Origin: Clostridia bacterium
GTDB taxonomy: Bacteria; Bacillota; Clostridia; Lachnospirales; WQUN01
Length of the DNA: 19,628 bases
Direction of reading: 5' to 3'
NCBI GenBank assembly: GCA_025997155.1
Contig: BNUF01000034.1
Coordinates: 1 to 19,628, forward strand
Shown piece by piece: positions 1 through 19,520 of the stretch. The stretch's first letter is position 1. Each line of letters opens with the position of its first letter. A model generated the notes under the pieces. That model saw nothing but the letters and a program-made list of their open reading frames with translations. It ran no database searches and had not been told where the DNA came from. A program made the translations under genes and the position numbers.

Positions 1-890
1 CCAGATGTCGAATCAATGTTGCCGCCAGTTTGATACATAGCTTCCAGCGTATCAAACTCATACTGAGGTTCTGTGCTAACGCGAACCCCATGTTTTGCTA
101 ACAGTTCTATGTATTTATGTTGAAATGCCGCTAAGTAGGCGGTTTTGCCCGCGCTGCTTCCACCGATAATCTGTATAGAAAATTGCCCAGCATTGCCGGA
201 TACGAGAGATGTGTCACAATTAGGGCAATAGGCATCAAGTTTCGTTCTGCCGACAAGAGAATGAACTGGCAAACATTTTCCGCATTGGCATATACTGAAC
301 AAGATTCCTAATCGGCCAGAGGTTAAAGAGGTGTGGATTTGTCCGCATGAAGGGCAGTGATATGCCGGAACTTGAAATTGTGTTAGGCAATTGGGACAAT
401 GCAAGGATTTCTGTATAGAGAAATCTATCCTCCGCAAAGGAAACAACGCGATAAGGCTTGCCAATAACCCTACCGTGATTAGCAACAAGTGCGCGAGAGT
501 AAGTGATACGATAACGACAAATCCGAATACAGCACGAAGAATCATTTCAACAGTACCGAGGAATGCTAACGGCACGTACAATAACGATACGAAAAACCTT
601 ATTAACGCGGAAGTGTGTCTGATGTTCCCGAGTTTATGCGCTATAGCCGCAATTCCAAACCATTTCCTGTCGATAAGCGATTTGAGAGAAGCGACGAATA
701 TTTTGATTGACTGATAGTAACCGCTGCCCATAAAATAACCGATAAATCGATTGCGTTTTGAATCTAGTAATCGCGCGTTTTTGTTGCTTATAATCGCGTT
801 TATGAATCCTATAACTATCCCGGCACAAACAGTTATTACCACAATAAATAAACAAACGGTCAAGGTCACATATATATTTTGTTGTGACAT
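1..890 (-). CDS. Membrane-anchored zinc-ribbon GTPase-like protein, C-terminal part outside the window
   Basis: The first 296 residues are visible and the frame is open to the window edge. The start is the ATG at 890, preceded by GGAGGG. The protein has an N-terminal membrane segment (about residues 8-32), a second hydrophobic block (about 98-152), then four cysteine pairs of zinc-ribbon type (CPNC 165-168, CPSC 179-182, CQC 201-203 plus C206, CPNC 222-225) and a P-loop GGSSAGKT at 243-250. The order and spacing match the complete 526-aa protein at 2292-3872, so the two are paralogues. The missing part should contain the DxxGE switch and the [NST]KxD specificity motif. It follows the nuclease gene by 24 bases in the same operon. 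It is probably a membrane-bound sensor or switch GTPase of the DO-GTPase type (inference). ATPase activity instead of GTPase activity cannot be excluded from this half. Confidence 0.85.
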   Translation of the reverse strand, partial: MSQQNIYVTLTVCLFIVVITVCAGIVIGFINAIISNKNARLLDSKRNRFIGYFMGSGYYQSIKIFVASLKSLIDRKWFGIAAIAHKLGNIRHTSALIRFFVSLLYVPLAFLGTVEMILRAVFGFVVIVSLTLAHLLLITVGLLASLIALFPLRRIDFSIQKSLHCPNCLTQFQVPAYHCPSCGQIHTSLTSGRLGILFSICQCGKCLPVHSLVGRTKLDAYCPNCDTSLVSGNAGQFSIQIIGGSSAGKTAYLAAFQHKYIELLAKHGVRVSTEPQYEFDTLEAMYQTGGNIDSTS

Positions 891-914
891 GTTGCCCTCC
901 CTCTGAGGATAAAG

Positions 915-1229
915 CTACATTTCCTGCCCCACGTCCTCGGATTCTTCAGGCATTTCGTGGGCATGCGAGCGGTTTTCGTGCGGGTCCTCTATTTGGTACA
1001 AATCGGGGTCGTTCATTCGTTCGTTAAATTCCTCTTGCGAAAGCCCTTCCTGTTCCGCTTTCTCCGCTTCTCGCCAATGTTCATTACCCGCCTTGTGTCC
1101 CAAATCGTACTTGCCTTCAATAGGCTTACCAGTGTTGGCATCAAGAAATTTGCCTTCTTCATTTTTTTGCGCGCGACGCTCGACTTCCTCACGCACTTCG
1201 GCTCGGATATAAGGTCTGTTGAGGGGCAT
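915..1229 (-). CDS. GH-E family HNH/Endo VII superfamily nuclease toxin, stand-alone
   Basis: This 104-aa protein is essentially only the toxin domain. It shows the family's signature blocks: an RPYIR start (5-9), a GKFLDANTGKPIEGKYDLGH stretch with the Gly-His pair at 44-45 and E50 close behind, FNERMNDPDLYQ (68-79), and NRSHxxE at 86-92. In known members the Gly-His-Glu residues and later histidines form a metal-dependent nuclease site. These domains usually sit at the C terminus of very large secreted polymorphic toxins. Here there is no signal peptide, export domain or repeat region. The gene starts 2 bases after the DUF2185 gene, and its GGAGGG lies inside that gene's end, so translation is probably coupled to the immunity protein. 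The acidic tail (93-104) is short. It is most likely the DNA- or RNA-cleaving effector of this operon. Confidence 0.85.
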   Translation of the reverse strand: MPLNRPYIRAEVREEVERRAQKNEEGKFLDANTGKPIEGKYDLGHKAGNEHWREAEKAEQEGLSQEEFNERMNDPDLYQIEDPHENRSHAHEMPEESEDVGQEM

Positions 1230-1231
1230 AA

Positions 1232-1540
1232 TTACATTCCCTCCGCGTCAAAGTCATAGTCCGCGGACATTTTGAACGCGCCGTTGTCATTCCCACGTTC
1301 GTATGCTGCGCCGATAGCTGACTGCAAATACGGCAAGACACTCTTGTCGATATCAAGAATCGTCTGTATGTCATAAAGAGCTATGTTGTCGGGGTTATCC
1401 GCGTAATCCTGGTTTTCATCTCCGCAGAAAAACCTCCAACCACTGTCACCTGATTTCCCTTTTTCGCGATACATAAAACGCACCTTGCGTTTGCCTTCTA
1501 TGAGCATTTTGCTTGCAAACACATAACCGAAATCCTTCAT
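1232..1540 (-). CDS. DUF2185 (Imm33-like) immunity protein
   Basis: This 102-aa cytoplasmic protein carries hallmarks of DUF2185: SGWRFFCGDE (33-42), YADNPDNIALYD (46-57), and a conserved C-terminal region with a PYLQSAIGAAYER-like segment (70-82). DUF2185 proteins are commonly found beside polymorphic toxins and are classed among immunity proteins; a smaller set serve other roles. The start is the ATG at 1540 after AAGGGG. Its immediate downstream neighbour is the GH-E nuclease, so the likely job is to bind and neutralise that enzyme. The order is immunity first, toxin second, which is opposite to the usual polymorphic-toxin layout and resembles antitoxin-toxin operons in which the protector is made first. 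The pairing is inferred from adjacency. Confidence 0.83.
   Translation of the reverse strand: MKDFGYVFASKMLIEGKRKVRFMYREKGKSGDSGWRFFCGDENQDYADNPDNIALYDIQTILDIDKSVLPYLQSAIGAAYERGNDNGAFKMSADYDFDAEGM
1239..1244 (-). promoter_or_regulatory. Ribosome binding site of the nuclease gene, inside the immunity gene
   Basis: GGAGGG read on the minus strand overlaps the last codons of the DUF2185 gene and lies 9 bases before the nuclease ATG at 1229. It supports that start and suggests coupled translation of the protector and the nuclease. Confidence 0.7.
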
Positions 1541-1571
1541 AAAAATCCCCTTTCAAAAATAAGTTACATAA

Positions 1572-2279
1572 TCATTTGTGGAAAAATAAGAACGCAAAAA
1601 CGCCAATATAAATAGGTACGGTTACAGCTGAAAAGCTGCGGACAGTTTCTAATTTACGCAACAAACTTGCAAATCGCGATAAAACGCGGCTCAATGTCCC
1701 GTCGCTTAGTAATCCAAAGACGATAGTACAACTGACAATGCTCGCGGCTATAATCCAATTTTCAATCCACGATTCAGTCCGTAAGTACCCAATCTGTAAG
1801 TTATTGATGTTAAGTATGTTATTAGCTGTGACAAGCCTAAACACGTCCGCAAGGTGAAAGTATAATATATAAACCGACAAACCGATACCGATGAGTGTAC
1901 CAAGACTAAGTCCAACCGCGACTTTTTTGTTTTCTGCGAAACCTATCGCGAAAGCAAATGTGATTACCGCATAAACCACTATGCATATAATGATTGACGT
2001 GGTGTCATCAGCTGTGAGGAATAGACTTGCTATTCCAATAACAATGCCGCCTACAATTACGCCCGCCATTAAACCACAAGAATATGACCAGAAATTATCC
2101 CTGAATTCTTCATACGCAATTGTTATTATAATCCCGATAACGCACCCAACAACAAACCCCACCCAGCTTAGCGCAGAACCCCACAATACGCCGCAAACAA
2201 AGGCGACAATTGTTCCGCATACACCCACAACAAAAAGCCCTAATGCAACTGCTAATAAAACCACAATAGCTTTAAGCAA
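1572..2279 (-). CDS. Polytopic membrane protein of unknown function
   Basis: This 235-aa protein is very hydrophobic, with about six to seven membrane helices: roughly residues 2-30, 36-55, 66-88, 94-114, 120-142, 172-191 and 217-233. Small residues (Gly, Ala, Val) are abundant in the first half. A polar stretch at 143-171 and a basic segment at 198-214 separate the last helices. The start is a TTG at 2279, supported by AAGGAGG seven bases upstream; there is no better ATG. It lies 12 bases after the membrane GTPase gene and before the immunity/nuclease pair, so it is part of the operon. I recognise no family. Possible roles are a pore or scaffold for the membrane-bound GTPases, or a membrane-damaging or containment effector. 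None of these can be decided from sequence alone. Confidence 0.8.
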   Translation of the reverse strand: MLKAIVVLLAVALGLFVVGVCGTIVAFVCGVLWGSALSWVGFVVGCVIGIIITIAYEEFRDNFWSYSCGLMAGVIVGGIVIGIASLFLTADDTTSIIICIVVYAVITFAFAIGFAENKKVAVGLSLGTLIGIGLSVYILYFHLADVFRLVTANNILNINNLQIGYLRTESWIENWIIAASIVSCTIVFGLLSDGTLSRVLSRFASLLRKLETVRSFSAVTVPIYIGVFAFLFFHK

Positions 2280-2291
2280 TGAAAAACCTCC

Positions 2292-3872
2292 TTACTCTGT
2301 CGCTATTATATTCGGGAATGGCGCTTTCGCGGTTGTAAGTAACCATGACACTGGTTCTGTAACGCCCCAAGGAGTGTACGTCCGTGTAGAATCCGCGCCG
2401 TGTCCCATTGCGCTAACTGGGAAAACTCCGATATTATTAAACGTCCCCTCGATTTCGTTTATCACGTTACCAAAGCCGTGGTTTTTCAAAAATTCTTTGC
2501 ATATCACATCACGCGCAACATAAATGTCACTTTGTCCGTCAGCTCCGATATATTGCGCGCTATTTTTGGAATAAGCGAACTTAATCTTTGGCAGACCTAT
2601 TTCAGTTTTGTACAAATCCGCTTTTGAAATGATTACGGCAACAGGAATATCGGACAGTTTTTTCGCCGACAACCCCTTAACCCCTTTAAACGCGTTTATG
2701 AATGTCGCGATGGCGATGCTTTCTTCACCAGGATTTCCCGACGGGTCAATTACGACAATAATACCTTCGCAGTATTCGAATTGCAATTGTTGATTTTCAA
2801 AGCCGCGAAGGGTAAACGCCTCGCCCGCAATATCGTATATCGTAAATTGTACAGGTATTTCGCCTTGCGTTTTGTGAACTATGCTGTACATATTAGCGTT
2901 AGTCTCATTTGTTGCCACGCTAATTCCACTCTGAAACCAGTCTTCCAAATCAGTGAAGGCCGTTTCGGGCGAGACCGAGTAAGACAGTGAATTTGCTTTA
3001 TCTAAATATTCGCGATAAATGTGCAAAAATGCGGCAAGAAAGGTTGTCTTCCCCGCGCTTGGGCTTCCCACCAGTTGCAGTCCGAATTGACGCGCATCGC
3101 TTGCCGCCAACTCCGAAGCGCAAAATGGACACACTGCTTCAAGTTCTGACCGTCCGTTAAATACCGTAACAGGAAGTATTTTGCCGCATGCACACTTCCT
3201 GTTAAAAACGCCATAAGGACTCGGCGTTAATTTTTCATGTTTCCTTCCGCACTGCGGGCAGGAAAAAACAGGCACTACAGACGTCCTTTTGCAATTAGGG
3301 CAACGGCTTTGTATCGATTTTAAGAACAAGGTAAATCTGTCGATACCCCACAAGGTCGTAAAAAAGATATAAAAGCCACACATCATGGTGAAATCAACAA
3401 CCAACAGCGCAACGCTAAAAACAGTTATCCACATAAAGCCAAATGTAAACGATAACCCATAAGCGACACCGAAGAAGATGTATGCCCAAACAGCGAAATA
3501 CCATTCCTCATATTTTAACCCTTGGATAAAATCCATTACAACATTTTTGCCGCCGCAAATAAACCAGTCGGACAAGCTCCGGAGTCGCTGATTCTGCATA
3601 TTGTAGGCTTCTTTTACAATCTCAAGGACCTGATGATAACCTGGTCCGAAAAAATAGTTCCGCTTAACGCCCGAAGGAGCATTGGGGTTTTTATCCGTAT
3701 AAGTGGCATACGGGTCAGAGTGGCTTTTTGTCGCACTGATATAGTTTATTAGCGACACGACAAGCGCGTACAAGCTACTTATTGATACCACAATGATTAA
3801 CACTATTGTCGCCAAAGGTATGACTACATAAACTATAAAGAGTATTGCCAAAATTAGGATTAGTACTGGCAT
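2292..3872 (-). CDS. Membrane-anchored zinc-ribbon GTPase (DO-GTPase-like)
   Basis: This 526-aa protein has two close N-terminal membrane helices (about 2-45) and a second hydrophobic pair (about 125-175). These are followed by four zinc-ribbon cysteine pairs (CPNC 191-194, CPQC 205-208, CAC 227-229, CPFC 248-251) and a P-loop NTPase domain. The G1 motif is GSPSAGKT at 269-276, G3 is DIAGE at 347-351, G4 is SKAD at 416-419 (a variant of NKxD), and G5 is an SAMG at 487-490. The C-terminal motif PVSWLL (507-512) resembles the RVLDPILWLF end of the soluble GTPase encoded upstream. This favours a TRAFAC-type GTPase of the DO-GTPase group. The GTPase domain should face the cytoplasm. It begins 22 bases after the GAP1-like gene and is a paralogue of the truncated gene at the left edge. 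Likely role: a membrane-localised switch regulated by the GAP1-like protein (inference). Confidence 0.88.
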   Translation of the reverse strand: MPVLILILAILFIVYVVIPLATIVLIIVVSISSLYALVVSLINYISATKSHSDPYATYTDKNPNAPSGVKRNYFFGPGYHQVLEIVKEAYNMQNQRLRSLSDWFICGGKNVVMDFIQGLKYEEWYFAVWAYIFFGVAYGLSFTFGFMWITVFSVALLVVDFTMMCGFYIFFTTLWGIDRFTLFLKSIQSRCPNCKRTSVVPVFSCPQCGRKHEKLTPSPYGVFNRKCACGKILPVTVFNGRSELEAVCPFCASELAASDARQFGLQLVGSPSAGKTTFLAAFLHIYREYLDKANSLSYSVSPETAFTDLEDWFQSGISVATNETNANMYSIVHKTQGEIPVQFTIYDIAGEAFTLRGFENQQLQFEYCEGIIVVIDPSGNPGEESIAIATFINAFKGVKGLSAKKLSDIPVAVIISKADLYKTEIGLPKIKFAYSKNSAQYIGADGQSDIYVARDVICKEFLKNHGFGNVINEIEGTFNNIGVFPVSAMGHGADSTRTYTPWGVTEPVSWLLTTAKAPFPNIIATE

Positions 3873-3894
3873 TTCTGAGCCTCGCTTTCAGTCT

Positions 3895-6459
3895 TCACTT
3901 GTCTGACTCATTTTTATCACGCTTAAATAAGCCGCCCAATATGTTGCCTGCACGACCTAAAATCGATTTGGCGTATGCTTCTTCTTGCATTTTGCGAACG
4001 CACTCAAGCGCGTCGCCTAAATACGCTTTGCTTGCCTTATCTCTCAATAAATCCAGCAACAAAGTTTCGGTTTTTGCCGAGCATTTGCTTGCCACAAGAC
4101 CGCTAATAATCGTCCTGTACGCGATAGTTGCTTCTTCGCCTTTCGGTAACCCTACAACATATTTGAAGAATTCACACCACTTATCACTATATTTATTCGC
4201 ACTTGCCAGTAGTCCCGAAAAATACGGAACAAAATACGTTTTTGGATTTTGAAGGAACATAGTAAGCATTTCCTGATACCACTTTCCCTTTAGCGAAGCG
4301 GATTGATTTATTCCTTTCACTAAGGCGTTAACGTATGTCGAATCGGCAATGGATACAAAGCCCTGTTCCTGTAACTTGGGCAGTAAAGAATAGTTCATGT
4401 TGGCGGAGTATAGCATCGATACCGCATAGTTATGCGCGGATTTAGTGCATATAGCGTTTCTCGGTCTGTTTGAGGATTGCAGGAAATCCGTGAGCTTTTT
4501 TGCGCTTTTGGCGAGTATCTCAATATTTTTATCCGCCTCTTCAAAGAAACATTTCAATTCATCCTCCGCAAGACATTCTGCAGAAGTGAGCAATTGAAGC
4601 ATATTAGCAATCTCGTCACAAGACTTTATCAATTCAAACCTTCTTTGCGACACAAAGACCACGCAAGGGTTCAAACTAGATGACTTCAATTTTTTGCAGA
4701 ATTCACAAGTAGCTTCATTAGACGCGATAATCGAAGCATCGCTGTCAAGAATACACTCGACAATGAATCTTGCAAAACGGGTATCTTTTGCGTTGGATTT
4801 TGCCAAGTCAAACAAATGCGAATTAGCGTTTCTTTTGTGGTTTGAAAATACGCCGATTATTGTCTTTGCAGTTTCTTTGTCGCTGTTTTTGTAGCACGAT
4901 TTTATTCCTGTAAGAACAACCTCTCTCGTCACATCTTCCTGATGTCGGTCAGCAATTTTGACGCTCTCTAAATAAATTTGCGTGAATATTAATGCCTCGG
5001 ATGGCAAGAAACTATTTGAAATCTCCAGATTTGAGCTTATCGTGTGCTTGTCTGTAATGTATGCAGCTACATCAGCACCGAATTTGCTGCTTTTTATATA
5101 TCCCCATGCCTCAAGTACAGTCTTGGAACTGCGTTTCTTATACAAAACATTCGTAAACCCGGAACAAATATCGCCAACAACGCTTCTGTAAACATCTCCT
5201 TCGCCAACAACGGTTGAGACGGAAATAACCCAGTCAACGATTTGCAAAGCGGCGTTTATGTCGTCCGCTAAAAAATCCGAAATATCACATTTTACATTAG
5301 AGTAGATTTTTTGAAGCATATCGCAATTTGCTAGTTTGAATCCAACTATTTTTAAAGCTTCGGCTAGTGACTTTGTCTCAAACTTTCCGATAGCCGACAA
5401 GACGCTGTATGCGCCATATAACGCCACTATATCAACGCAAGGTCTATCCAAGTTGACCATCCGCAAAAACTTCATGCAGAAATTTTCACGCTCCGAGTCA
5501 AACCGCGTTATCAACTTATAGTAGTCGGCAGTTGTGTCAGAATCAAACATAGCTCTCTTTGATGTTCCGTCCAATAACACAAAAGGCGAATTAGCCAATG
5601 CTCGCGCCGCGTTTGAGTTGATGCCGTCCCTCGAATCAACGCCGATTATCATTGCGCGATATCGAATCTCTTGATTTGTATCCTGCAAGTTCATTTGTTG
5701 CTGATAAGTGCCCGTTGCCTTATTTATGGTATAGCGATTAGCGGTGGGAAATTTATCCATTCGCGTCGCAAAGGGTATCGTGGCGGCGATTTGCGGTGAG
5801 AACGCGTACTCAATAGCCGCTATCCATTTTTCGATATTTTCGGCGGAATCATCCTTAATGACAAGAAATTTCCGTTCCTTAGCGGGTTTTGGTTGTGCCA
5901 AACTTCCATACTGTGAAAGCAAGAAAGATACCGCCGCCCTAAGCGCTTCTTCGCGTCCTTCCTTGATGAAGTCGCGAATAGCCCCGACGGTGTATTTCCT
6001 TTCATCGTGTCTCAAACTTCGCGAACAAAATGGAGTAGGCGGATTTTCATAATAATACGCCTCGCCCCTATCTTTTGCGTCCCAGTCGGAGCTTCCAAAC
6101 ATTTCGCAGGGATAGCTAGCTGAAAAATCCCCGACAAAAACTTGATTTACAAAATTACCTGGCCGATGTGAATAATCGCCTTTTGCGTTGGAGTCGAAGT
6201 GGACAGGCGAAAACCGAACAAACATAGAATTGCCAACGTCCGGGGTATAGTAGAGGTACGCGTCGTCCATAAAATCTGGCTCTTTATATGTTTGCTTGGT
6301 TTGCGCCACATCAGCCAGCAGACGCAAATCCACAGTTCCATCAGCTAAAAGAGCCTTATCGCATGAATATACCTTATAGCCCTCATTGGGTATTTCACGG
6401 CAATTATTCAGAATATCGACGCCTTGTTTGCAACGGGTATAAATAAGTTCGTTAAACAT
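3895..6459 (-). CDS. GAP1-like GTPase-associated protein
   Basis: This 854-aa cytoplasmic protein has no membrane segments. Its N-terminal domain (about 1-200) begins FNELIYTRCKQGVD and continues with a glycine-rich block around RPGNFVNQVFVG (99-110). This is the pattern I associate with the N-terminal domain of GTPase-associated protein 1, found beside DO-GTPases in conflict systems. The rest (about 200-854) is helix-rich with many leucines and scattered cysteines, resembling an alpha-solenoid middle and C-terminal region. I chose the ATG at 6459, with AAGGAG nine bases upstream. The frame opens 24 bases earlier at a TTG that overlaps the preceding gene's stop region and has no ribosome site of its own. 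It lies between two zinc-ribbon GTPase genes, which supports a role as their partner, either activating hydrolysis or acting as a scaffold. The family name rests on motif memory and synteny. Confidence 0.82.
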   Translation of the reverse strand: MFNELIYTRCKQGVDILNNCREIPNEGYKVYSCDKALLADGTVDLRLLADVAQTKQTYKEPDFMDDAYLYYTPDVGNSMFVRFSPVHFDSNAKGDYSHRPGNFVNQVFVGDFSASYPCEMFGSSDWDAKDRGEAYYYENPPTPFCSRSLRHDERKYTVGAIRDFIKEGREEALRAAVSFLLSQYGSLAQPKPAKERKFLVIKDDSAENIEKWIAAIEYAFSPQIAATIPFATRMDKFPTANRYTINKATGTYQQQMNLQDTNQEIRYRAMIIGVDSRDGINSNAARALANSPFVLLDGTSKRAMFDSDTTADYYKLITRFDSERENFCMKFLRMVNLDRPCVDIVALYGAYSVLSAIGKFETKSLAEALKIVGFKLANCDMLQKIYSNVKCDISDFLADDINAALQIVDWVISVSTVVGEGDVYRSVVGDICSGFTNVLYKKRSSKTVLEAWGYIKSSKFGADVAAYITDKHTISSNLEISNSFLPSEALIFTQIYLESVKIADRHQEDVTREVVLTGIKSCYKNSDKETAKTIIGVFSNHKRNANSHLFDLAKSNAKDTRFARFIVECILDSDASIIASNEATCEFCKKLKSSSLNPCVVFVSQRRFELIKSCDEIANMLQLLTSAECLAEDELKCFFEEADKNIEILAKSAKKLTDFLQSSNRPRNAICTKSAHNYAVSMLYSANMNYSLLPKLQEQGFVSIADSTYVNALVKGINQSASLKGKWYQEMLTMFLQNPKTYFVPYFSGLLASANKYSDKWCEFFKYVVGLPKGEEATIAYRTIISGLVASKCSAKTETLLLDLLRDKASKAYLGDALECVRKMQEEAYAKSILGRAGNILGGLFKRDKNESDK

Positions 6460-6475
6460 CGTACATTTCTCCTTG

Positions 6476-7591: not shown

Positions 7592-7608
7592 TGCCATCCT
7601 CTTTCTTT

Positions 7609-10656: not shown

Positions 10657-10657
10657 C

Positions 10658-12910
10658 TTATTCGTCTCCCCACGTTTCGGTTTCGGAGTTTTCGGAGTCC
10701 TCATTTGCACGTTGGCGCATATTAATATTAGAAATGTACGCGTGCGATAAAAGTTCACAATGATGACCGCCGTGTTCCAATCCAAAGCGCACGTCAACAT
10801 TTCTTTCATCGGGTTTGTCTTTGCTCCCCACAAGTTTATCGTCTATATAAATCTCGTAATGTCCGCCATGCGACAGCGACATTTTCAGTGTAAATCTCGA
10901 ACCGACAGTCGCAACGGGCGTACCGTCCAAAAACATATCTCCGCCATTTAGACTTAGACTAGCTCTGATTATCCCGAGAGTAATGTTGACATTTCCGCCA
11001 GGATGCGGCTTTATATCTGATGTATCAATGTCACATTCAATTTCGAAATCATCGTCGTTGCCAAGCGTATAGTAAACGCCTTCGTCCATCGCGCTGATAT
11101 TATAGCCGTGAAATTCTATGGCTTTTTCATTTGCCTTCACATGAACTTTTGGTTCGTTGTACTTCGCGCCGCTTGGATGACTTGAAATATTATCATAATT
11201 GCTCCATTCAACGTTACTAAACGTCACAGCCTTGAATTTGTGAACAACGTCTTGATTGGCGGAACGCCCCGTTTGCAATCCCAAAAACGACGCTGGCACG
11301 TCCCGCGTTTCTTTTTCAACAGATTTGCCGTACTTTGAAATATCCGTCGGCACGGCGTCCTTTCGTATCGTCAAGTCGGTTTTATCGTCTTCTTGACGTG
11401 CTTGTATATGGATAATTCCATTGTCATCATAGCTATACTGAATCCTAACCAACGTTCCGCGGGTGTCGCCGTTTTTCACATGACGTATTCCCGTGACTAC
11501 GTATTTGTACGGAATTTTGCAATCTACGGGGTTTTCGCTGCTTCCTTGCAGAACATATATTTCTATTTCGTTGCTTGAATGTTTAGAAGTATAGAACTTG
11601 AATTTCTTTGCTGAACGTACAGGGCGTGGGTGATTCGCTGGGATAATGATTTCATTGTAGTACATATTTGTATCGTCGTTGACAGCGATAATTCCCATAG
11701 CGTGAGCGACCGTTTCTTTTATGCTCAATAAACCCACATCAGACAGCTTTTTTTCACTTTTGACGGAACTTAAAAAATTGTCACTCAAATCTTTCCGATC
11801 AGTAACCTTTTTGCCATCTTCAACTTTGACTGATAAATCAAAATACGCGGTTGCGGTCTTCGTTGCCTGTATTGCCGCGCCAAGAGCGACCGCTTCATCA
11901 GGATTTACATGAGCGATTGGCTTTTTCCCGAATATGTTAGCGATAAATCTCGATACTTGCGGCATACGGGTTGAACCGCCTACGAGAAGGATATCGGTTA
12001 TGTTACTTGCGTCAAGCTTTGATTCGCCCAAAACCGCCCTGCATAGGTCTCCTGTCCTCTCTATTAAGTCCGCGGTACATTTCTCAAAATCTTCTCTCGT
12101 AATAGTTACACTACATCTGCCAAAATTAGGCAACGTCGCGTCGACCTTCACACTCTCGCGTGCGGATAAACTTTTCTTCACACCTTTCGCAAGCCCTTTT
12201 ACATAAGAAATAGTCGAAATATCGGCGCGTGTTTCCTCGTTGAGTTCTTCTTGAAATTTGGCATGTAAAATACTTTCGAGACGCCCGTCCCAATCGCGGC
12301 CGCCCAGTTCATGATTGCCCCGTGTCGTCACTGTGAATAATTCGCCGTCGTGTCCCATTTTCACCAATGTAACATCAAACGTCCCGCCACCTAAATCATA
12401 GACAAGTATATTCGCGTTTTCGCGCCAATGTGACAAACTGTAAGCCATTGCCGCCGCATTAGGTTCGTCAATGATTTTTTTGACGCTTAGCCCTGCCGAC
12501 TCGGCAGCCCTAAGCGTTGCTTCGCGTTCAAGAGAATAGAAATAGGCGGGTACGGTTATCACGGCATCCTTGATTTTGCCGCCAAGTTCCGCCTCCGCTT
12601 CTTCTTTCAGATGACGTAGTAGCATAGCCGATAATTCTTCAGAAGTGTAAGCCTTGCCGTCAATATAGCAATAGGGCTTGCCGCTACCCATTCCGCGCTT
12701 AAATGTCGCTACACATCCAAGTTCGCCGGCATTGAACGCGCTTTCGGCTTCAGTGCCAAAACGAGGTACGCCGTCAATAAATTGTATCACGGAAGGCGTA
12801 ATCTTAGCGCCTTCCCCATTATTCACAATGCGGGGCATACGAGTAGCTTCGTCTACAATGGCAACGGCCGAAAACGTTGTTCCTAAATCAATGCCAACCG
12901 AATAAGTCAT
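10658..12910 (-). CDS. Hsp70-family chaperone with C-terminal lectin-like beta-sandwich
   Basis: This 750-aa protein has a complete Hsp70 nucleotide-binding domain with GIDLGTTFS (6-14), DLGGGTFD (172-179) and LLVGGSTRMP (308-317). A substrate-binding beta domain follows (about 396-510, with ETVAHAMGI near its start). Canonical DnaK would next have the alpha-helical lid. Here residues about 555-733 instead form a predicted beta-sandwich with YEIYIDDKLVG (685-695) and paired GGH motifs. This looks like a concanavalin/LamG-type fold, and a short acidic tail follows (735-750). The start at 12910 has AGGAGGG upstream and lies 8 bases after the other Hsp70 gene. The protein has no export signal. 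The lid replacement suggests a dedicated client or ligand rather than general folding. It probably uses the GrpE-like factor encoded in the same operon. Confidence 0.93.
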   Translation of the reverse strand: MTYSVGIDLGTTFSAVAIVDEATRMPRIVNNGEGAKITPSVIQFIDGVPRFGTEAESAFNAGELGCVATFKRGMGSGKPYCYIDGKAYTSEELSAMLLRHLKEEAEAELGGKIKDAVITVPAYFYSLEREATLRAAESAGLSVKKIIDEPNAAAMAYSLSHWRENANILVYDLGGGTFDVTLVKMGHDGELFTVTTRGNHELGGRDWDGRLESILHAKFQEELNEETRADISTISYVKGLAKGVKKSLSARESVKVDATLPNFGRCSVTITREDFEKCTADLIERTGDLCRAVLGESKLDASNITDILLVGGSTRMPQVSRFIANIFGKKPIAHVNPDEAVALGAAIQATKTATAYFDLSVKVEDGKKVTDRKDLSDNFLSSVKSEKKLSDVGLLSIKETVAHAMGIIAVNDDTNMYYNEIIIPANHPRPVRSAKKFKFYTSKHSSNEIEIYVLQGSSENPVDCKIPYKYVVTGIRHVKNGDTRGTLVRIQYSYDDNGIIHIQARQEDDKTDLTIRKDAVPTDISKYGKSVEKETRDVPASFLGLQTGRSANQDVVHKFKAVTFSNVEWSNYDNISSHPSGAKYNEPKVHVKANEKAIEFHGYNISAMDEGVYYTLGNDDDFEIECDIDTSDIKPHPGGNVNITLGIIRASLSLNGGDMFLDGTPVATVGSRFTLKMSLSHGGHYEIYIDDKLVGSKDKPDERNVDVRFGLEHGGHHCELLSHAYISNINMRQRANEDSENSETETWGDE

Positions 12911-12918
12911 ATGCCCTC

Positions 12919-14637
12919 CTAAATTTGTCCGCTTGTTTTAAGTAAAGCAAACTGTTTAACCGCTTCGTCTAATTCTTCGGGGCTCTTTGTGTTTTCGGAT
13001 TCAATCACCGTTTCCGTCAATTCCCCTGTTGACACAACCTTTGCTTTTACCTCCAACCCTCTTGCGCTTGAACGGAATGTCACCTCTAACGGCGAACCTT
13101 TAGGCGTATTCGGGGGCAATGGTACTATCAACTCGCCGATACGCTTAACCTTCAAGGCGAGGTCGGTTTTTTGAGGGTTGCCGTTTTTGTCCTCGCATGG
13201 CGTTACAGCGGTATTTTCACGGTCGGTGGCGACATTTTCAAAAATTCTCGCACGGATAAATTCTTGATTTTCATAGACCGTGTAATATTCACGCGAAAGT
13301 TCTGACGGCGAAACATCTCCAACGAAAAGCAAGTTGTCAACAAAAAGGTTGCCGCTGGAGTTCAGAACGCCAAGCCCAAACGAACGCGCAAGTTTATCAA
13401 CGTAACCGCCACCACCGGAAAAGACTTGCGGAACGTTAATCATCAAATCTTCCGCTTGAGATTCGGTCAGAGGAGGTTGCGCGTCTTCAAACGCGCTCTC
13501 TTTAGTTTGCGCCGAATCGGAACTGCCTAACGAGTTGCTTTCAACACGTTCACGCAGTTTCTCATTGAATTCAACAGCCGCCGCTAACGCCGCTCCCTTT
13601 GCTACAGCTAAGTTTGGCTGCTCCACGCGAACCTTTCCAGGGAACAACTTTTCAACGACCGACTTAATCATCGGCATAAGCGTTGAACCGCCGACAAGCA
13701 ACACGACGTCTACCTCATTTTCTGAAACTCCTGTATCTGTCAGCAGTTTTCGCACAAAGTCCATTGTCCGCTCAACTAAATCTTGCGTAAGTTCCTCAAA
13801 CTTTTCGCGTGTAACTTCAATACGAGTCGCGTCACCCGCGTAGTTGACCGTGAAACTTTTGTTGGTCATGCTGGAGAGTCCGCGCTTTACTTCTTCCGCC
13901 AACGAACGGATTTTTTGCCTAAGTTCTCCCTCCATAGAATCTTTGTCAACGCCAGTTTCATCTTCATACACTTCGCTTATGTATCTGTACAAGCGTTCGT
14001 CCCAATCAACGCCGCCGAGTCTGTCATCTCCGCCAGATTTAATTACATCAATAGAAGCTTTGCCCGCGTCATCAACGCTAAAATCAAAAAGCGTAATGTC
14101 GAAAGTACCTCCGCCGAGGTCGTAAACCATCATCTTGCGGTTTTCTTTGAACTCACGGCAGCAATAATTCAAAGCGGCCGCGGTAGGTTCGTTGACAATA
14201 TTCAACACGTTAAGCCCCGCAATTATACCCGCTTGCCGCGTAGCGTTGCGTTCTTCAGTTCCAAAATACGCGGGGCAAGTAATAACGACATCTTCCACGT
14301 TGTAACCTTGCTCATCGGCGTATTCTTTCATTCGCTTAAGAATCAACGCGGATATTGTGATAGGGTCGTAAGCAACGCCATCGAAATCATACGTTTGCGC
14401 ATTGGATTTACCAATCTGACGCTTTACAAACTGTATGACCCTGTGACCCTCAACTTCCACCTGATTTTTGGCTTCCTTCCCAATGACGGGCATTCCACCC
14501 TCGGGGAAGAATACCGCGGAGGCGAGCAAATCCCCGCCGTCGTTATAGTTCTGAATAACCTCGGGCGTACCGTTATCGTCCAAAGTCGCGATGACAGAGT
14601 ATGTCGTTCCTAAATCAATTCCGTATACTTTAGCCAT
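12919..14637 (-). CDS. Short lidless Hsp70 (DnaK-like)
   Basis: This 572-aa protein is shorter than typical DnaK (about 610-640 aa). The nucleotide-binding domain is intact: GIDLGTTYS (6-14), DLGGGTFD (173-180), and LLVGGSTLMP (313-322). The region that normally carries the DDVLLLDVTP-type linker is replaced by a long Ser/Glu-rich tether (365-395) and a GGGG stretch at 408-411. A degenerate substrate-binding beta domain (about 415-545) follows, including a PLPPNTPKGSPLEV segment. Only a short C-terminal helix remains (551-566), so the lid is absent. The ATG at 14637 has GGAGGG upstream. The gene lies 48 bases after the GrpE-like gene and 8 bases before the second Hsp70. No dnaJ is seen in the window. 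It is probably a specialised operon-bound chaperone rather than the housekeeping DnaK. Confidence 0.94.
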   Translation of the reverse strand: MAKVYGIDLGTTYSVIATLDDNGTPEVIQNYNDGGDLLASAVFFPEGGMPVIGKEAKNQVEVEGHRVIQFVKRQIGKSNAQTYDFDGVAYDPITISALILKRMKEYADEQGYNVEDVVITCPAYFGTEERNATRQAGIIAGLNVLNIVNEPTAAALNYCCREFKENRKMMVYDLGGGTFDITLFDFSVDDAGKASIDVIKSGGDDRLGGVDWDERLYRYISEVYEDETGVDKDSMEGELRQKIRSLAEEVKRGLSSMTNKSFTVNYAGDATRIEVTREKFEELTQDLVERTMDFVRKLLTDTGVSENEVDVVLLVGGSTLMPMIKSVVEKLFPGKVRVEQPNLAVAKGAALAAAVEFNEKLRERVESNSLGSSDSAQTKESAFEDAQPPLTESQAEDLMINVPQVFSGGGGYVDKLARSFGLGVLNSSGNLFVDNLLFVGDVSPSELSREYYTVYENQEFIRARIFENVATDRENTAVTPCEDKNGNPQKTDLALKVKRIGELIVPLPPNTPKGSPLEVTFRSSARGLEVKAKVVSTGELTETVIESENTKSPEELDEAVKQFALLKTSGQI

Positions 14638-14669
14638 ATGTTACCCTCCTATTTTTTAGCGTCTTTGCC

Positions 14670-14686
14670 GCCACTTCAAGTGTGGC
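14670..14686 (-). other. Weak hairpin between grpE-like and Hsp70 genes
   Basis: GCCAC and GTGGC arms of 5 bp flank a 7-base loop directly at the grpE-like stop codon, in the longest gap inside the operon. No strong U-tract follows, so it is not a convincing terminator. It could tune the ratio of the two messages, or be chance. Confidence 0.25.
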
Positions 14687-15294
14687 TACTCAATCGTTGG
14701 TTTTTTTATATAGACATCAACCAATTCCTTAACCAGCGTCCTGTTCTCAACATAAAATCCCGCTTGTCGGCTTTTTATCACAGTATCGGCTTTTTCGGCA
14801 TCGTCGGTTTCCTCTCGTTCGACAACTTGGCAATGTTTTGTATTGCGCTTGCTACCTGGTTGACTTTCGAGCTTGGTAACACCATACCCCTCCAAAATTT
14901 GCAATATATCTTGAAACATATAGCCCAATCGCTTCTTTATTTTTTCGTTCTCAATGTCGGATAACACACCTACATTGTCGCTATATATTTTTGCGACATT
15001 AACCAGTACATCATCAAAAATTCGCCCTTTTTCGATTTCGCGGTAATGCTCAACTTCTGTCTGCATCGACTGTAGGCGATTCGCGAATTCGGTATGATAA
15101 AGCCTGTGCATTTCTCGAAGTTCGCGCGCAATCTTTTCAACATCGCCGTATAATTTCGAGGTTACGGAATCAGGAGCAACATTAGCATTCGCAGGGATTT
15201 CTTGTTCTGTTTTAGACTCTTGTTGCCCAGTGTCATTCGTTTCCGCCGAAACTTCATCAATCCCCACCTGATTGATAACATTCATGTCTTCCAT
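14686..15294 (-). CDS. grpE: GrpE-family nucleotide exchange factor
   Basis: This 202-aa protein has the GrpE layout: a disordered acidic N terminus (1-45), a long coiled-coil helix (about 46-95, with heptad-like charged residues), a helical dimer region (about 96-135), and a C-terminal beta domain (about 136-197). The beta domain contains GYGVTKLES (136-144), ADTVIKSRQAGFYVENR (169-185) and a final LVDVYI. In canonical GrpE the corresponding blocks are a glycine-Val segment and TV..VLQKGY....R.LRPA.V.V. It should release ADP from the two Hsp70s encoded immediately downstream. The start at 15294 has an excellent AGGAGGAG. Similarity outside the beta domain is low, so it is a divergent, operon-specific paralogue rather than the housekeeping gene. 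Confidence 0.82.
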   Translation of the reverse strand: MEDMNVINQVGIDEVSAETNDTGQQESKTEQEIPANANVAPDSVTSKLYGDVEKIARELREMHRLYHTEFANRLQSMQTEVEHYREIEKGRIFDDVLVNVAKIYSDNVGVLSDIENEKIKKRLGYMFQDILQILEGYGVTKLESQPGSKRNTKHCQVVEREETDDAEKADTVIKSRQAGFYVENRTLVKELVDVYIKKPTIE

Positions 15295-15314
15295 TTATTC
15301 TCCTCCTAATATTC

Positions 15315-16649
15315 TCATATACCTATAAAAACCGAGCCGTTCGAGTCGTGTACGCAAGTAACACCTTCGGGCAACATGGAGAGCGTTTCGGCACGCACAC
15401 GCGGTTCATCGGTTTCACTAACTTGTATGCCACGTTGGTTCGCGTTGTTTGCTGTGCCGCCAAAAATCAAACCGCCCCCTGTATGCCCTAAAGATTGTGA
15501 AATCGACATTGTCACTTTTATTTTGTGGTAAGTTCCAAGGTGTTCAGACCACTTTTTACACGACGTACCAGAAGAATGCCGCATCAGTACTAATTTCGTA
15601 ACATCGCCCATTAATTGCGTGAAAATGTCCTCGCCCTTTTCCTTGCCGCCAAACAGCGAAGAAATAAAATCGTTATGGCTGAGGGCAAACTTTCGTCCCC
15701 TTAACAAGGTACTTATTTTAGGGAATCGTGCGGTATCAACGCCGTCAATTACCAGCGCGAACTCTTTATTCAGCCCCTGTAAATATTTAATGTGACCAAG
15801 CGCAAGATTAATAAGCAAGTCATTGCCGTTTGCTCCAACGTCAACACAAGCAACTCCGTTTAAGTTGAGTAACTTCTTAATGTTGCATCCGTTTTTAGGC
15901 GTTGTTCCATAGACACCGCTTACTTGTCGGTTCAGTTTATTGATAAATGAACGCACAGTTGTGATTTCTGTTGAACCAGACATATAGTCTCGACTAATGT
16001 CAGCGTGTTCATTTGACGTTATGGCGTTTTGTTTAAGCAGCGCGTTAAGTTTATCCATAAGTTTATCAACGGGAAACACTGATAAATTCTGAAAAGTCAC
16101 CTTGCCTTCGCTGTGCAATAAAACTTCAACAACCGTGCGTATGAGCAATTCCGCCTTTGGATTCTTTTCATTTTCTAAAATTGTTTCAGACAAGATATAT
16201 TCAATGTCATTGCCCGGCAAAGCCCTAAACGCGTCATAAAACAACGACGCTTGCGATATTATTTCATACGCGCCGCTGTGAGCGTTTATCAAATTTTCCA
16301 AGTGCCGATTGCCGCAATGTATAGCAATTATAGGAACGTTATTCTGCTGCAGCATATGAATAAACGGCATTAAAGCTTTCGTTCGGTCTTCGATTTTTCC
16401 TCCAGACACAACAATGTTATCAGGCATATTAGTGTTACCTATTATGTAATCTATCGCCGTAACGTTACCTTGAGTCTGAATATCATAGATGTCATTATCG
16501 TCCCCCTGCGTTAAAAGCAACTGTTGCTTATTCATTCCCTTAACAACGGATACTTTGCGGTTCTCAAAATTGGCGTTTGACGCGTCTTGGTATACGCGTC
16601 TGATGTCGCCTCTTGTCCGCATATTGTCAATCGTACTCCAAACACTCAT
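15315..16649 (-). CDS. Probable ATPase-dead VirD4/TraG-like partner protein
   Basis: This 444-aa protein is about the size of the ATPase encoded 14 bases upstream and seems to follow the same plan. Where the P-loop is expected, IVVSGGKIEDRTKAL (79-93) lacks the GxGK[ST] signature. A Walker-B-like strand FALVIDGVD (297-305) has Asp but no catalytic Glu. A LALGHIKYL helix (282-290) and RHSSGTSCKKWSEHLG (357-372) resemble the VirD4/TraG C-terminal half. The start at 16649 has GGAG upstream. I see no membrane segments or zinc sites. If the alignment by eye is right, this is a pseudo-ATPase that could form mixed rings with, or regulate, its active neighbour. The alternative is an unrelated protein with an accidental similarity; no family is certain. 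Confidence 0.75.
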   Translation of the reverse strand: MSVWSTIDNMRTRGDIRRVYQDASNANFENRKVSVVKGMNKQQLLLTQGDDNDIYDIQTQGNVTAIDYIIGNTNMPDNIVVSGGKIEDRTKALMPFIHMLQQNNVPIIAIHCGNRHLENLINAHSGAYEIISQASLFYDAFRALPGNDIEYILSETILENEKNPKAELLIRTVVEVLLHSEGKVTFQNLSVFPVDKLMDKLNALLKQNAITSNEHADISRDYMSGSTEITTVRSFINKLNRQVSGVYGTTPKNGCNIKKLLNLNGVACVDVGANGNDLLINLALGHIKYLQGLNKEFALVIDGVDTARFPKISTLLRGRKFALSHNDFISSLFGGKEKGEDIFTQLMGDVTKLVLMRHSSGTSCKKWSEHLGTYHKIKVTMSISQSLGHTGGGLIFGGTANNANQRGIQVSETDEPRVRAETLSMLPEGVTCVHDSNGSVFIGI

Positions 16650-16663
16650 ATAACCCGCTCCGT

Positions 16664-17974
16664 TTAAGAATATAAATCAAACTTATATTTGAATGGCGAT
16701 GCTGACGGCAATCCTACAACCGCTTCACCAACGCCTAATGAAGTCAAGTCCCAATCTTCAACGATGAATCCCTCTTGGATATTGCTTGAATACGACCCGT
16801 CCCCATTCTGATAATTAAACAGCATCATATTTTTTCCAAATATGTCACTGACGTATTTTCTCGTATTAGGATCGTTTGAGCGAAAGGCGTAAATCGAAGA
16901 AAATCCCGCAATAATATTGCGAGCGCACGCTTCATTGTTATAGGTGGCGTTTAGCTGGTCAATATTTTGCAAGCCCGCCAGTATCTTCACGCCCAAACTA
17001 CGTCCAAAGTTAATTCCGTCTTCAAGATGACGCAAGTTAGGCAATAGTTTTAATTCGTCCGCAATCAAGTAAACATTGCCTCGTGAAGCCATCCGCCCCA
17101 AAGCCTCTTTGAGGGCTAAGTCAAACAGCAGAGAATACACTGGCGCAAGTATATCGCCAATCGCCAAATCGTATTCGAGAAAAACCGTTCTGCCGCCCTT
17201 GTTGCGGATAAAATTGCGAATTGAGAAATTGCCGATATCCGAAAAAACACCCGTAAATACGTCACGTGTTACCGAATACATTTCGGACAATACGCCTTGC
17301 GCCTGAGAGCCGGAGCCTTTACCTATATAGGAACCCACCGATGCTAAATCCTTATGCCCCGCAATTAATCCACGTATATCATCAATGGGAGCAGCGTCAA
17401 TATAATCCCGCAAATCCTTGTTGCACGGAACAGAACCATCGCGGATAAGCGCCGTAATAATTGCTGCCAAAAGGTCACGCGCCGCGTTTGGAAAAAACGG
17501 GTTATTGCTATTCCCTTCGACGCGTTCCGCAAACAACGCCTTGCACAATTCCTGCGTGTTTTGGGCAATTGAAATTCTATCCTTGCCATCAGCTACAATT
17601 TCTTCATATAAACTCCATTTTTCTGATAATTTACGGTATTGGACAGAGTTGCCAATGACTGCATCGCCTTGAGCCATAAATTTCTTATGAAAGTCGCCTT
17701 TACTGTCAAAAACGAGCATAACATCATCTTTTGTCATCTTTCGCTTAATTTGGTCAACGAAATGGTAGAAAAGGTTCGTTTTACCACTACCAGTTCCTCC
17801 AACAAAAAGCGCGTGTTTACTAAGTATATCTTCTGTTATGCCGAAGGCAGTTTTTAAGCCGTTGTATAAGCCTTTAACACTTACTACACTACCAAGAGGA
17901 TTAGCAGGTGGCTCGTTCTGCTCAATCGTTTCTCCATAGACTAGTACTTTTGCCAAAGCCAAGCAATCCACCAT
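16664..17974 (-). CDS. VirD4/TraG-type P-loop ATPase (coupling-protein-like)
   Basis: This 436-aa frame contains GGTGSGKT (Walker A, 59-66), VFDSKGD (88-94, the VirD4 DxKGE/D motif), VYLIADELKLLPNL (301-314, Walker B and TraM-recognition-like start), and ILAGLQNIDQL (331-341). This is the order seen in type IV coupling proteins and HerA/FtsK relatives. No membrane anchor is present and no relaxase or mating-pore gene is in the window. The ATG at 17974 has no ribosome site. A better start with CGGAG lies at 18068 in another frame, which would join this frame by skipping one base near 17948-17951 (see the separate entry). It is the first enzyme of the operon and probably an ATP-driven motor moving DNA or protein. 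The pairing with a dead relative argues for a dedicated role. Confidence 0.88.
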   Translation of the reverse strand: MVDCLALAKVLVYGETIEQNEPPANPLGSVVSVKGLYNGLKTAFGITEDILSKHALFVGGTGSGKTNLFYHFVDQIKRKMTKDDVMLVFDSKGDFHKKFMAQGDAVIGNSVQYRKLSEKWSLYEEIVADGKDRISIAQNTQELCKALFAERVEGNSNNPFFPNAARDLLAAIITALIRDGSVPCNKDLRDYIDAAPIDDIRGLIAGHKDLASVGSYIGKGSGSQAQGVLSEMYSVTRDVFTGVFSDIGNFSIRNFIRNKGGRTVFLEYDLAIGDILAPVYSLLFDLALKEALGRMASRGNVYLIADELKLLPNLRHLEDGINFGRSLGVKILAGLQNIDQLNATYNNEACARNIIAGFSSIYAFRSNDPNTRKYVSDIFGKNMMLFNYQNGDGSYSSNIQEGFIVEDWDLTSLGVGEAVVGLPSASPFKYKFDLYS

Positions 17975-18068
17975 CCCGTGAAAATGTGTACTTAAAACTA
18001 TTCAAGCCTATCGGCTTATCCGTACCGCAGCCGAAGACCTCTTTTGGCAAAGCAGAGTATCTTGCCAT
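17922..18068 (-). CDS. Out-of-frame 48-codon leader, probable true N terminus of the ATPase gene
   Basis: An ATG at 18068 follows CGGAGTGA, a good ribosome site, and opens a 48-codon frame that ends with TGA at 17922, overlapping the ATPase frame. The peptide (EVFGCGTDKPIGLNSFKYTF at 10-29, then DGGLLGFGK) reads like real protein, with glycines and aromatics. At an A4 run (plus-strand T4, 17948-17951), skipping one base joins LLGFGK to VLVYGETIEQ of the ATPase frame, giving about 467 aa. It could be a one-base insertion mutation, a sequencing error in the short homopolymer, a programmed +1 shift, or a separate leader peptide. The first two seem likeliest because no classic frameshift signal is evident. 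Confidence 0.55.
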   Translation of the reverse strand: MARYSALPKEVFGCGTDKPIGLNSFKYTFSRDGGLLGFGKSTSLWRND

Positions 18069-18083
18069 TCACTCCGTTATAAC

Positions 18084-18172
18084 CACAGTACTTTCGCCGT
18101 AACGAGACGATATCTCGGTATCACCCAAGTCGACAAAAACGAGACATGCCAAAAACTCGCACTTTTACTGTG
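18084..18172 (-). other. Untranslated leader with inverted repeats
   Basis: The leader between the predicted promoter and the ATG at 18068 contains a perfect 7-bp inverted pair (18084-18090 with 18166-18172, CACAGTA/TACTGTG in the transcript). Between these arms is a small hairpin (18103-18117, CGAGA/TCTCG with a 5-base loop). It may be an RNA structure or operator; chance is possible because the arms are short and far apart. There is no CIRCE element, although heat-shock-type genes follow. Confidence 0.25.
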
Positions 18173-18194
18173 ATAAAACCAATAACTGTACTTC

Positions 18195-18223
18195 AGTATA
18201 CTACAAATTTCCGTAAAATGCAA
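18195..18223 (-). promoter_or_regulatory. Predicted promoter of the operon
   Basis: On the minus strand a TATACT -10 (18195-18200) lies 17 bases from TTGCAT (18218-18223). The -10 matches 5 of 6 consensus bases, the -35 only 3 of 6, so an activator may be needed. The surroundings are A/T-rich. Transcription would begin near 18188, giving a leader of about 120 bases before the ATG at 18068. Confidence 0.45.
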
Positions 18224-18239
18224 ATAAAAATTTCAAATT

Positions 18240-19090: not shown

Positions 19091-19099
19091 AGTGGTTAC

Positions 19100-19150: not shown

Positions 19151-19167
19151 TTACACGTATTTAACGG

Positions 19168-19187: not shown

Positions 19188-19217
19188 GTAATTTTATGAA
19201 TTTTGGCTTTATTTGAT

Positions 19218-19263: not shown

Positions 19264-19264
19264 A

Positions 19265-19498: not shown

Positions 19499-19520
19499 TT
19501 ATGGTAATGTCATAAATAAG

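Follow-up and report, generated by a model that had tools for sequence, protein, structure and literature searches.

Small nucleases with a shared acidic C-terminal tail accompany a VirD4-like ATPase pair in a clade of GAP1-N2 chaperone and GTPase operons

Why would an operon of chaperones and GTPases also encode two VirD4-like ATPases and a small nuclease with its own immunity protein? The locus that raises this question lies in a stretch of 19,628 nucleotides (nt) from a Clostridia bacterium (assembly GCA_025997155.1, contig BNUF01000034.1, positions 1 to 19,628), the whole of which is called the window here. A program-made list gives 13 open reading frames (ORFs) for the operon, all on the minus strand and running from 17974 to 3, with the last one (G13) cut by the window end. 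Throughout, G1 to G13 denote these genes in transcription order, labels of the G000 type with three or four digits denote genomes (G000 is the window's own), and L-numbers denote loci. The original prediction, made from the letters alone, had proposed at least 12 tightly spaced same-strand genes at positions 1 to 18068 as a candidate undescribed conflict or delivery system. The spacing is indeed tight, at 14, 20, 48, 8, -8, -4, -8, 22, 12, 31, 2, and 24 nt from G1 to G13 (a range of -8 to 48 nt, taking the ATG at 10665 as the start of G6). The operon does reach the window start, but it begins at 17974 rather than 18068.

By comparing the sequences of this operon and its relatives, we found that the ATPase pair and the nuclease cassette come together and are missing together, and that the cassette protein changes while its acidic C-terminal tail is kept. 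Our tentative answer, which we hold to be possible and somewhat short of probable, is that the tail serves as an address that brings exchangeable, immunity-silenced nucleases to a VirD4-like ring, with the action taking place inside the cell.

The joint presence and absence is seen when two types of loci are compared. Six loci are of a simple type, with a membrane GTPase, GrpE, Hsp70, Hsp70, FN3, GTPase, and GAP1, and without the ATPase pair or the cassette. Five of these are in G843, G906, G1040, G819 (with two GTPase genes), and G283, and the sixth, on contig 65 of G009, is more divergent, having one Hsp70 and the membrane GTPase last. The narrow GAP1 profile missed G819 and G009 contig 65; alignment A2 found the former, and the latter was assigned by position. 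Both the ATPase pair and a protein ending in -QEM were observed in eight of the nine same-contig loci of the window type (G000, G002, G005, G006, G007, G008, G009, and G011, with G812 as the exception), while both were lacking in six of six simple-type loci, for which stretches of 29 to 40 kilobases (kb) were read (Fisher 0.0014, uncorrected for kinship, with G005 and G011 being near-copies). None of the 822 ORFs in the simple-type stretches has a similar tail. G009 holds both locus types, and the additions are confined to its window-type locus. Left out of this count were G753 (upstream end off the contig), G003 and G010 (halves on different contigs), G001 and G004 (contigs end), and L126 (G737), L124, L129, L055, L056, L054, and L057, where an end or core genes are not visible or another theme is present.

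In phylogenetic trees, the window-type rows form one side of a branch for both Hsp70b (support 100/100) and GAP1 (92/99), although the GAP1 tree has long branches, and the unclassed rows G084 and G156 fall inside its window-type side. The window type is a distinct clade of GAP1-N2/DO-GTPase systems of the Hsp70 theme, with an add-on consisting of the ATPase pair and an exchangeable nuclease cassette. The core of Hsp70, GTPase, and GAP1 also exists without the ATPase pair and toxin, in the six simple loci.

The cassette of the window consists of G11 (1232..1540, minus strand), which encodes an Imm33 immunity protein (PF09951, 9.8e-29), and, downstream of it, G12 (915..1229, minus strand), which encodes a bare GH-E nuclease of 104 amino acids (aa) with the catalytic domain first (PF14410, 1.2e-23, residues 25-92) and the acidic tail PEESEDVGQEM last (918..950, minus strand). 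The nuclease and immunity protein of the original prediction are therefore both present, with immunity preceding toxin. A cassette is visible in 11 genomes (the window's, G002, G003, G005 to G011, and G753), and in 11 of 11 it lies downstream of GAP1. It sits between two membrane GTPase genes in seven (the window, G003, and G006 to G010), between GAP1 and one membrane GTPase gene in G005 and G011, and behind one membrane GTPase gene, with no second one seen, in G002 and G753. GH-E with Imm33 accounts for nine of the 11 cassettes, Imm33 accompanying all nine GH-E genes, and other families are found in the remaining two. The G003 cassette combines Tox-GHH (PF15636, 3.5e-10) with SUKH-1 (PF09346, 6.2e-10), so that toxin and immunity family are both replaced, and the G002 cassette (L030) encodes a protein of 140 aa that fits no family clearly, with no immunity gene recognised beside it. 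A GNHRIAAS stretch in this protein presumably recalls ParB-like proteins. The proposed arrangement of a conserved core with a variable toxin is seen only in part, in these two replacements, since GH-E/Imm33 is kept in nine of 11 and the tail is constant. The cassette proteins are about 104-158 aa long, with the catalytic domain first and no large N-terminal trafficking part, so they lack the architecture of polymorphic toxins; the adjacent cognate immunity gene of such toxins is present with the GH-E and Tox-GHH proteins.

An end of the form -[EG]QEM-COOH was found on cassette proteins in 11 of 11 genomes, namely nine GH-E proteins, the Tox-GHH, and the unclassified protein. The tails end in DVGQEM (window), ENGQEM, DNGQEM, DMEQEM, EVEQEM, or EIEQEM, the last of which is common to a GH-E, the Tox-GHH, and the 140-aa protein. 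Between the GH-E of G753 (L122) and the 140-aa protein of G002 (L030), 40 of 45 tail nucleotides are identical, and BLASTP gave no significant similarity between the parts before the last 22 residues; a change of head before a kept tail would be the simplest reading. Across 63 loci, nine of 1384 distinct ORFs of at least 90 aa end in QEM, all of them cassette proteins, and 13 end in M with at least five acidic residues among the last 12. The stretch behind the NRSH motif was measured in 116 small GH-E proteins; it is 12-79 residues long (median 25), with a median content of 35% acidic and 2% basic residues. No domain match was obtained in the tail region of the cassette proteins scanned, which is also without an XVIPCD, a domain of about 120 residues.

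Other proteins near the cassettes or resembling their products were also observed. Four extra ORFs with acidic ends and a final M, of 99-120 aa and ending in MSM or ESM, lie inside window-type operons, between Hsp70 genes (L014:13965-14264, L015:5995-6294, and L016:14189-14509) or beside Imm33 (L032:13564-13926); by their sequence, they are possibly further tagged proteins. At L031:7167-7543, beside the SUKH/Tox-GHH pair, two short broken frames without a QEM end resemble the L030 140-aa protein and could be the remains of an older cassette or an error of assembly. Some small GH-E nucleases, such as P0261, P0269, P0275, and others, carry a different tail of the DEYGVDLSKAEKS...ENSKHR type and may belong to another machine. 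A search for effectors in trans with one strict tail pattern gave 13 matches in 12 genomes, eight of them cassette-protein ends and the other five very short frames or frames without a stop; this pattern misses tails written in other codons, such as those of G007 and G008.

The ATPase pair opens the operon. G1 (16664..17974, minus strand) encodes a soluble VirD4/TrwB-like ATPase of 436 aa (PF10412, 3.2e-42; TrwB by sequence, 1.1e-18), whose Walker A motif is intact and is kept in 12 of 12 rows, the window included. Its best match in PADLOC is the defence ATPase model mad8 (3.4e-12). G2 (15315..16649, minus strand; 444 aa) has no matches in Pfam, NCBIfam, or PADLOC. Among the 120 of 129 G2 proteins listed (the query and relatives 42 to 53% identical to it over 92 to 100% of its length), none has a Walker A motif and 119 have SGG....R. 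The predicted structure of G2, with a predicted local distance difference test score (pLDDT) of 85, matches TrwB (12% identity) and Cag-beta with E about 1e-9, a template modelling score (TM-score) of about 0.5, and 10-12% identity, with weaker matches to DndH, HerA, and TdpAB. At the level of this model, the proposal of an active and an apparently dead VirD4-like ATPase is borne out, G2 being the putative dead partner of G1. No hydrophobic segment was found in either protein, so the N-terminal membrane anchor of type IV coupling proteins is absent. A second G1 with a divergent dead G2 was observed in the window's genome at L051 (G000 contig 27, 123-10191), where the neighbours are a Ser/Thr kinase, a PP2C, one or more DUF6273 proteins, and a vWA protein that ends in DDDWD, as does a vWA-like protein there. 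The profile matches at L051 include no GTPase, GAP1, or toxin cassette.

We infer that the tail is a recognition signal. The -QEM end would be a portable address, read by a ring of VirD4 and pseudo-VirD4 subunits that works without a type IV channel and is gated by an Hsp70/GTPase/GAP1 switch, an account that we put forward as a serious candidate while rating its truth a little under evens. G1 and G2 may form the mixed ring that reads the tail, the pair being the most likely reader because it comes together with the tailed cassette. The immunity protein would silence the nuclease, and the core of Hsp70, GrpE, GTPase, and GAP1 at the membrane would be the switch that tells the ring when to act, which agrees with Kaur et al. 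(2020, PMC7159879), who propose such a role for the GTPases. Upon a trigger, for instance the entry of a phage, the nuclease could be separated from its immunity protein or brought onto the ring, and its cutting of DNA within the cell would limit the invader or kill the host. We favour action inside the cell over export because the only channel gene looked for, VirB4, turned up in one of 14 genomes and on another contig, because G1 is soluble and matches mad8, and because the second pair at L051 has a kinase/vWA/PP2C setting.

Were this account true, a VirD4-type machine would have its own substrate code outside type IV secretion. With about ten residues on three protein families, the tail is a concrete handle for finding its binding partner, whose identity would reveal the role of the VirD4-like pair, connect the core of chaperones and GTPases with an effector, and tell us if an ATPase of the coupling-protein kind is able to function where there is no secretion channel. 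The tail is also a search key for effectors encoded elsewhere.

Several observations weigh against the tail being an address for the ring. There is no direct link between tail and ATPases, and Hsp70, GAP1, or the FN3 protein could be the reader. All window-type loci form one branch, which amounts to one event. G812 has the ATPase pair and no -QEM protein; between an extra GTPase and the FN3 gene it has a 123-aa relative (55% identical) of the L030 protein that ends in EEMEISV. The GH-E profile does not find Tox-GHH, but BLASTP aligns the two at 30% over 59 residues (E 0.037), and both are HNH/Endo VII nucleases according to the Pfam description, so their shared tail could be inherited within one superfamily rather than exchanged. 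Among 120 listed of 252 small GH-E relatives, 55 end in QEM and 90 in M, and about 15 of the 120 (14 by pattern plus the lookalike P0259) bear another tail with basic ends. A basic ATPase surface for the acidic tail was considered, and the isoelectric points (pI) of the whole proteins, 5.5-6.5 for G1 and 5.4-8.9 for G2, give no hint of one. A C-terminal signal with an upstream immunity gene would also be expected of an export system.

Such a system is the subject of one other explanation, in which the VirD4-like pair reads the tail as a secretion signal and the membrane GTPases, together with the polytopic proteins, build or attract a passage into neighbouring cells, as in bacteria-killing type IV secretion. 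We regard it as unlikely, though well worth keeping in view. The signal stands at the C-terminus, toxin and immunity family were both replaced in one locus, and GH-E, Tox-GHH, Imm33, and SUKH are typical of inter-bacterial toxins, all of which would suit export. As far as the sections consulted of the two papers go, immunity genes usually lie upstream of the toxin in X-Tfi/X-Tfe pairs (PMC6536674), and in the Dot/Icm coupling complex it is DotM that binds acidic, Glu-rich signals at the C-terminus of effectors (PMC5802825). It is harder to reconcile with the absence of a membrane segment in G1 and with the occurrence of the gene set under both Gram-positive and Gram-negative labels, whose envelopes differ. 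VirB4 (PF03135) also speaks against it, being found in one of 14 carrier genomes, on another contig; the model was found in only one of 14 control genomes too, VirB4 was the sole channel gene tested, and most genomes are incomplete.

We consider it improbable that the tail is instead a chaperone-client tag, a handle by which the Hsp70/GrpE pair or the FN3/zinc-ribbon protein holds or folds the toxin while the ATPase pair serves another step, such as foreign-DNA sensing. C-terminal motifs seem to be in use in these systems, since many Hsp70b proteins end in an acidic stretch with TW, and the FN3 protein is basic (pI 7.7-9.0), but the simple-type loci keep Hsp70, GrpE, and the FN3 protein with no tagged protein in the stretches read. 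It seems very improbable to us that an orphan toxin/immunity cassette hitch-hiked beside a known GAP1-N2 system, with a tail that belongs to small toxins and is unrelated to the ATPases. While GH-E proteins of similar size with another tail exist, and two of the three cassette families fall in one nuclease superfamily, all 11 genomes with a cassette have it downstream of GAP1 and close to a membrane GTPase gene, one tail is found on different heads, and the cassette is missing together with the ATPase pair.

The remaining genes of the operon form the core around which the tail and ring would act. All lie on the minus strand, and the chaperone set named by the original prediction was recovered in full: G3 (14686..15294) is the nucleotide exchange factor GrpE (PF01025, 3.3e-9), G4 (12919..14637) is Hsp70a, of 572 aa, with the nucleotide-binding part only (PF00012, 5.7e-87, residues 4-356), and G5 (10658..12910) is Hsp70b, of 750 aa, with PF00012 matched in two stretches (2.4e-98) and an extra C-terminal region. 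The acidic end with TW, which was observed on Hsp70b proteins of both locus types, resembles the C-terminal motif of eukaryotic Hsp70. G6 (7609..10665; 1018 aa from the ATG at 10665) is the zinc-ribbon/FN3 giant that had been expected, with a weak zinc-ribbon match and an fn3 match of 24.5 bits against a cut-off of 25. In its family, fn3 was matched in five of 10 members (best 9.2e-10) and TPR_19 in two of 10; the family profile matches fibronectin at 2.4e-10, and no DnaJ or J-domain appears among the best 25 of 40 families.

Three GTPases had been predicted, all with zinc ribbons and two of them membrane-anchored. The GTPases are there, as are hydrophobic segments in G9 and G13, but the zinc-ribbon matches on all three are weak and below the cut-off, with visible CxxC pairs. 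G7 (6476..7612; 378 aa) is of the DO-GTPase type with a zinc-ribbon-like N-terminus (DO-GTPase2 0.002, below the cut-off); Walker A is kept in 14 of 14 rows and [YF]D.AGE in 13 of 14, the window included. G9 (2292..3872; 526 aa) has a zinc-ribbon-like part and hydrophobic segments at 1-45 and 139-167, reaches 29.4 bits for DO-GTPase2 (cut-off 27), and keeps Walker A in 13 of 13 rows but [YF]D.AGE in only seven of 13. The second membrane GTPase, G13 (3..890, cut by the window end), has the Walker A GGSSAGKT and three hydrophobic segments.

G8 (3895..6483; about 860 aa), the GAP1-like partner, combines a mixed N-terminal part with a helical solenoid and has no Pfam match of its own. Its relatives carry the identification: 22 of 27 aligned members match GAP1-N2 at E<=1 (best 2.7e-4) and 11 of 27 match GAP1-M, so that G8 is a probable N2-type GAP1 through its relatives only. 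Its model (pLDDT 84, predicted TM-score 0.62) resembles helical-repeat proteins in the PDB, with TM-scores up to 0.25 among the matches listed. The polytopic membrane protein of the prediction is G10 (1572..2279; 235 aa), with seven hydrophobic segments on a simple scale and no family match in profile searches. Of the features of GAP1-N2 DO-GTPase systems of the Hsp70 theme, the window has a zinc-ribbon GTPase with the conserved Glu in D..GE, a GAP1, an FNIII component, and Hsp70 with GrpE and a second Hsp70 without a peptide-binding domain. Fusion of the FNIII protein to DnaJ or TPR is typical of such systems without being universal, and an association with a multicellular habit is a further trait of theirs. 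Elsewhere in the window's genome, L052 and L053 (G000 contigs 37 and 23) hold more Hsp70-like gene pairs, with no GTPase or GAP1 profile match nearby. At L054 (G084 contig 50, 13324-16026), a high-scoring GAP1 gene was observed with no other system genes among the profile matches in the 20 kb read.

A failure of the GTPase/GAP1 and Hsp70/ATPase genes to recur together had been named as what would refute the original prediction. These genes, GrpE included, do recur together, with the nuclease cassette as part of the unit, and because the arrangement recurs in other genomes a chance junction is rejected. Scanning GTDB genome contigs for the G2 family gave 11 loci (L009-L019), labelled Spirochaetaceae (two), Balneolaceae, Deltaproteobacteria, Oscillospiraceae (two), Eubacteriales, Ruminococcus, Bacillota, Lachnospiraceae 10-1, and uncultured bacterium (one). 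With the window this makes 12 loci, and in every one of them G1 and G2 are neighbours, while GrpE is next in 11; in L012 (Deltaproteobacteria) the contig ends before GrpE, so the longer gene order is seen under three phylum labels only. Where contigs or flanks reach, the order continues as Hsp70, Hsp70, FN3, GTPase, and GAP1, accompanied by the membrane GTPase and the nuclease cassette, and GAP1 is present in 10 of 11 genomes of the recurring loci. Some loci hold more than this: G002 has another Hsp70a, additional FN3 proteins, and a GTPase, G006 has another Hsp70b, and small extra proteins are found elsewhere.

The gene set is carried by genomes labelled as Gram-positive and as Gram-negative groups. 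All of the recurring-locus records except Lachnospiraceae 10-1 are metagenome-assembled genomes (MAGs) or uncultured assemblies by title, and the two contigs labelled Balneolaceae are each about 11 kb long; mis-binning may therefore lie behind the spread across phyla. A tree of DnaK places the window's genome closest to the Bacillota MAG G010 (98/96) and clusters the Balneolaceae genome G003 with the rows from Spirochaetaceae and Deltaproteobacteria (100/99). A tree of Hsp70b puts G003 with the copies from the window, Oscillospiraceae, Eubacteriales, and Ruminococcus (100/100), a conflict that would fit either horizontal transfer or mis-binning.

The G2 family is rare. It was found only in the starting genome each time, in one of 398 genomes of the window's phylum, one of 299 of the Lachnospiraceae 10-1 family, one of 37 of the G010 family, and one of 92 of the G003 family. 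GAP1, searched with alignment A2, was found in 6 of 398, 8 of 195, and 4 of 300 genomes, starting genomes included. Among 72,556 plasmid records none matched G2 or GAP1, viral contigs scanned by pattern were likewise without a match, and G1 had no match in a phage collection in which G2 and GAP1 were not searched; a phage or plasmid system was ruled out on these grounds. G12 has three plasmid matches (36-41% identical), and G1 alone has distant relatives on large plasmids (at most 37% among the matches listed). The genes listed around three of these plasmid relatives, two bacterial and one archaeal, include none named Hsp70, GrpE, or GTPase; the relative from Curtobacterium has an HNH protein nearby, which lacks an acidic tail.

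Two features were observed in the window upstream of the operon. A tRNA-like remnant on the minus strand at 19108-19165 (27 bits against a gathering score of 29, E 0.067) is a possible integration scar. At 19521-19628 on the plus strand, a full-consensus match to a sigma-70-type promoter precedes an ATG whose product begins MVYINALCPHCGSNDVV, which we take to resemble the start of an IS1-type transposase.

How much of this is new depends on what was already described. The core of GTPase, GAP1, Hsp70, GrpE, and FN3 is the Hsp70 theme that Kaur et al. (2020, PMC7159879) describe for GAP1-N2 systems; this theme comprises zinc-ribbon GTPases (one of them membrane-anchored), GAP1, FN3, Hsp70, GrpE, and a second Hsp70. 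The window type goes beyond the theme as given there in its ATPase pair, its toxin cassette, and, in seven of 11, a second membrane GTPase behind the cassette. The main text of that paper, supplements being outside our scope, does not mention VirD4, TraG, TraD, the type IV secretion system (T4SS), or GH-E, and names FtsK for other systems. In the literature searched beyond it, we met "GAP1-N2" nowhere and "DO-GTPase" and "double-GTPase" once each. Combining VirD4, HerA, type IV coupling protein, Imm33, or GH-E with Hsp70 or GTPase returned only Kaur et al., the CoCoNuT paper, or unrelated titles, with subscription journals outside the scope, and no experimental study of GAP1/GTPase/Hsp70 systems, which had been predicted from genomes, was met in the term-based search. 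The word "undescribed" in the original prediction does not apply to the core, and within the literature searched it holds at most for the ATPase pair and the tailed toxin, with the tail and its link to the pair as the new part.

The closest comparisons that we found are each partial. TerY-P is a hypothesised signalling switch with related modules cited as stand-alone antiphage systems (PMC11090510); L051, with its triad of kinase, vWA, and PP2C, has a TerY-P-like setting. In the X-T4SS, VirD4 reads the effector's C-terminal domain XVIPCD, which has a Gln-rich end (PMC6536674). The window resembles it in a VirD4-family ATPase, a toxin domain before a C-terminal signal, and an upstream immunity gene, but its tail is short and acidic and no VirB4 was found beside the locus. 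The short, acidic, Glu-rich tail is more like the E-block signals of Dot/Icm effectors, which are likewise linked to a coupling-protein complex (PMC5802825), although the reader there, DotM, is a different protein and a channel exists. As in the HerA-DUF4297 defence complexes (PMC11291478), an ATPase of the FtsK/HerA superfamily stands next to a nuclease, and the window differs from them in having a TrwB-like ATPase with a dead partner, a separate immunity gene, and the Hsp70/GTPase core.

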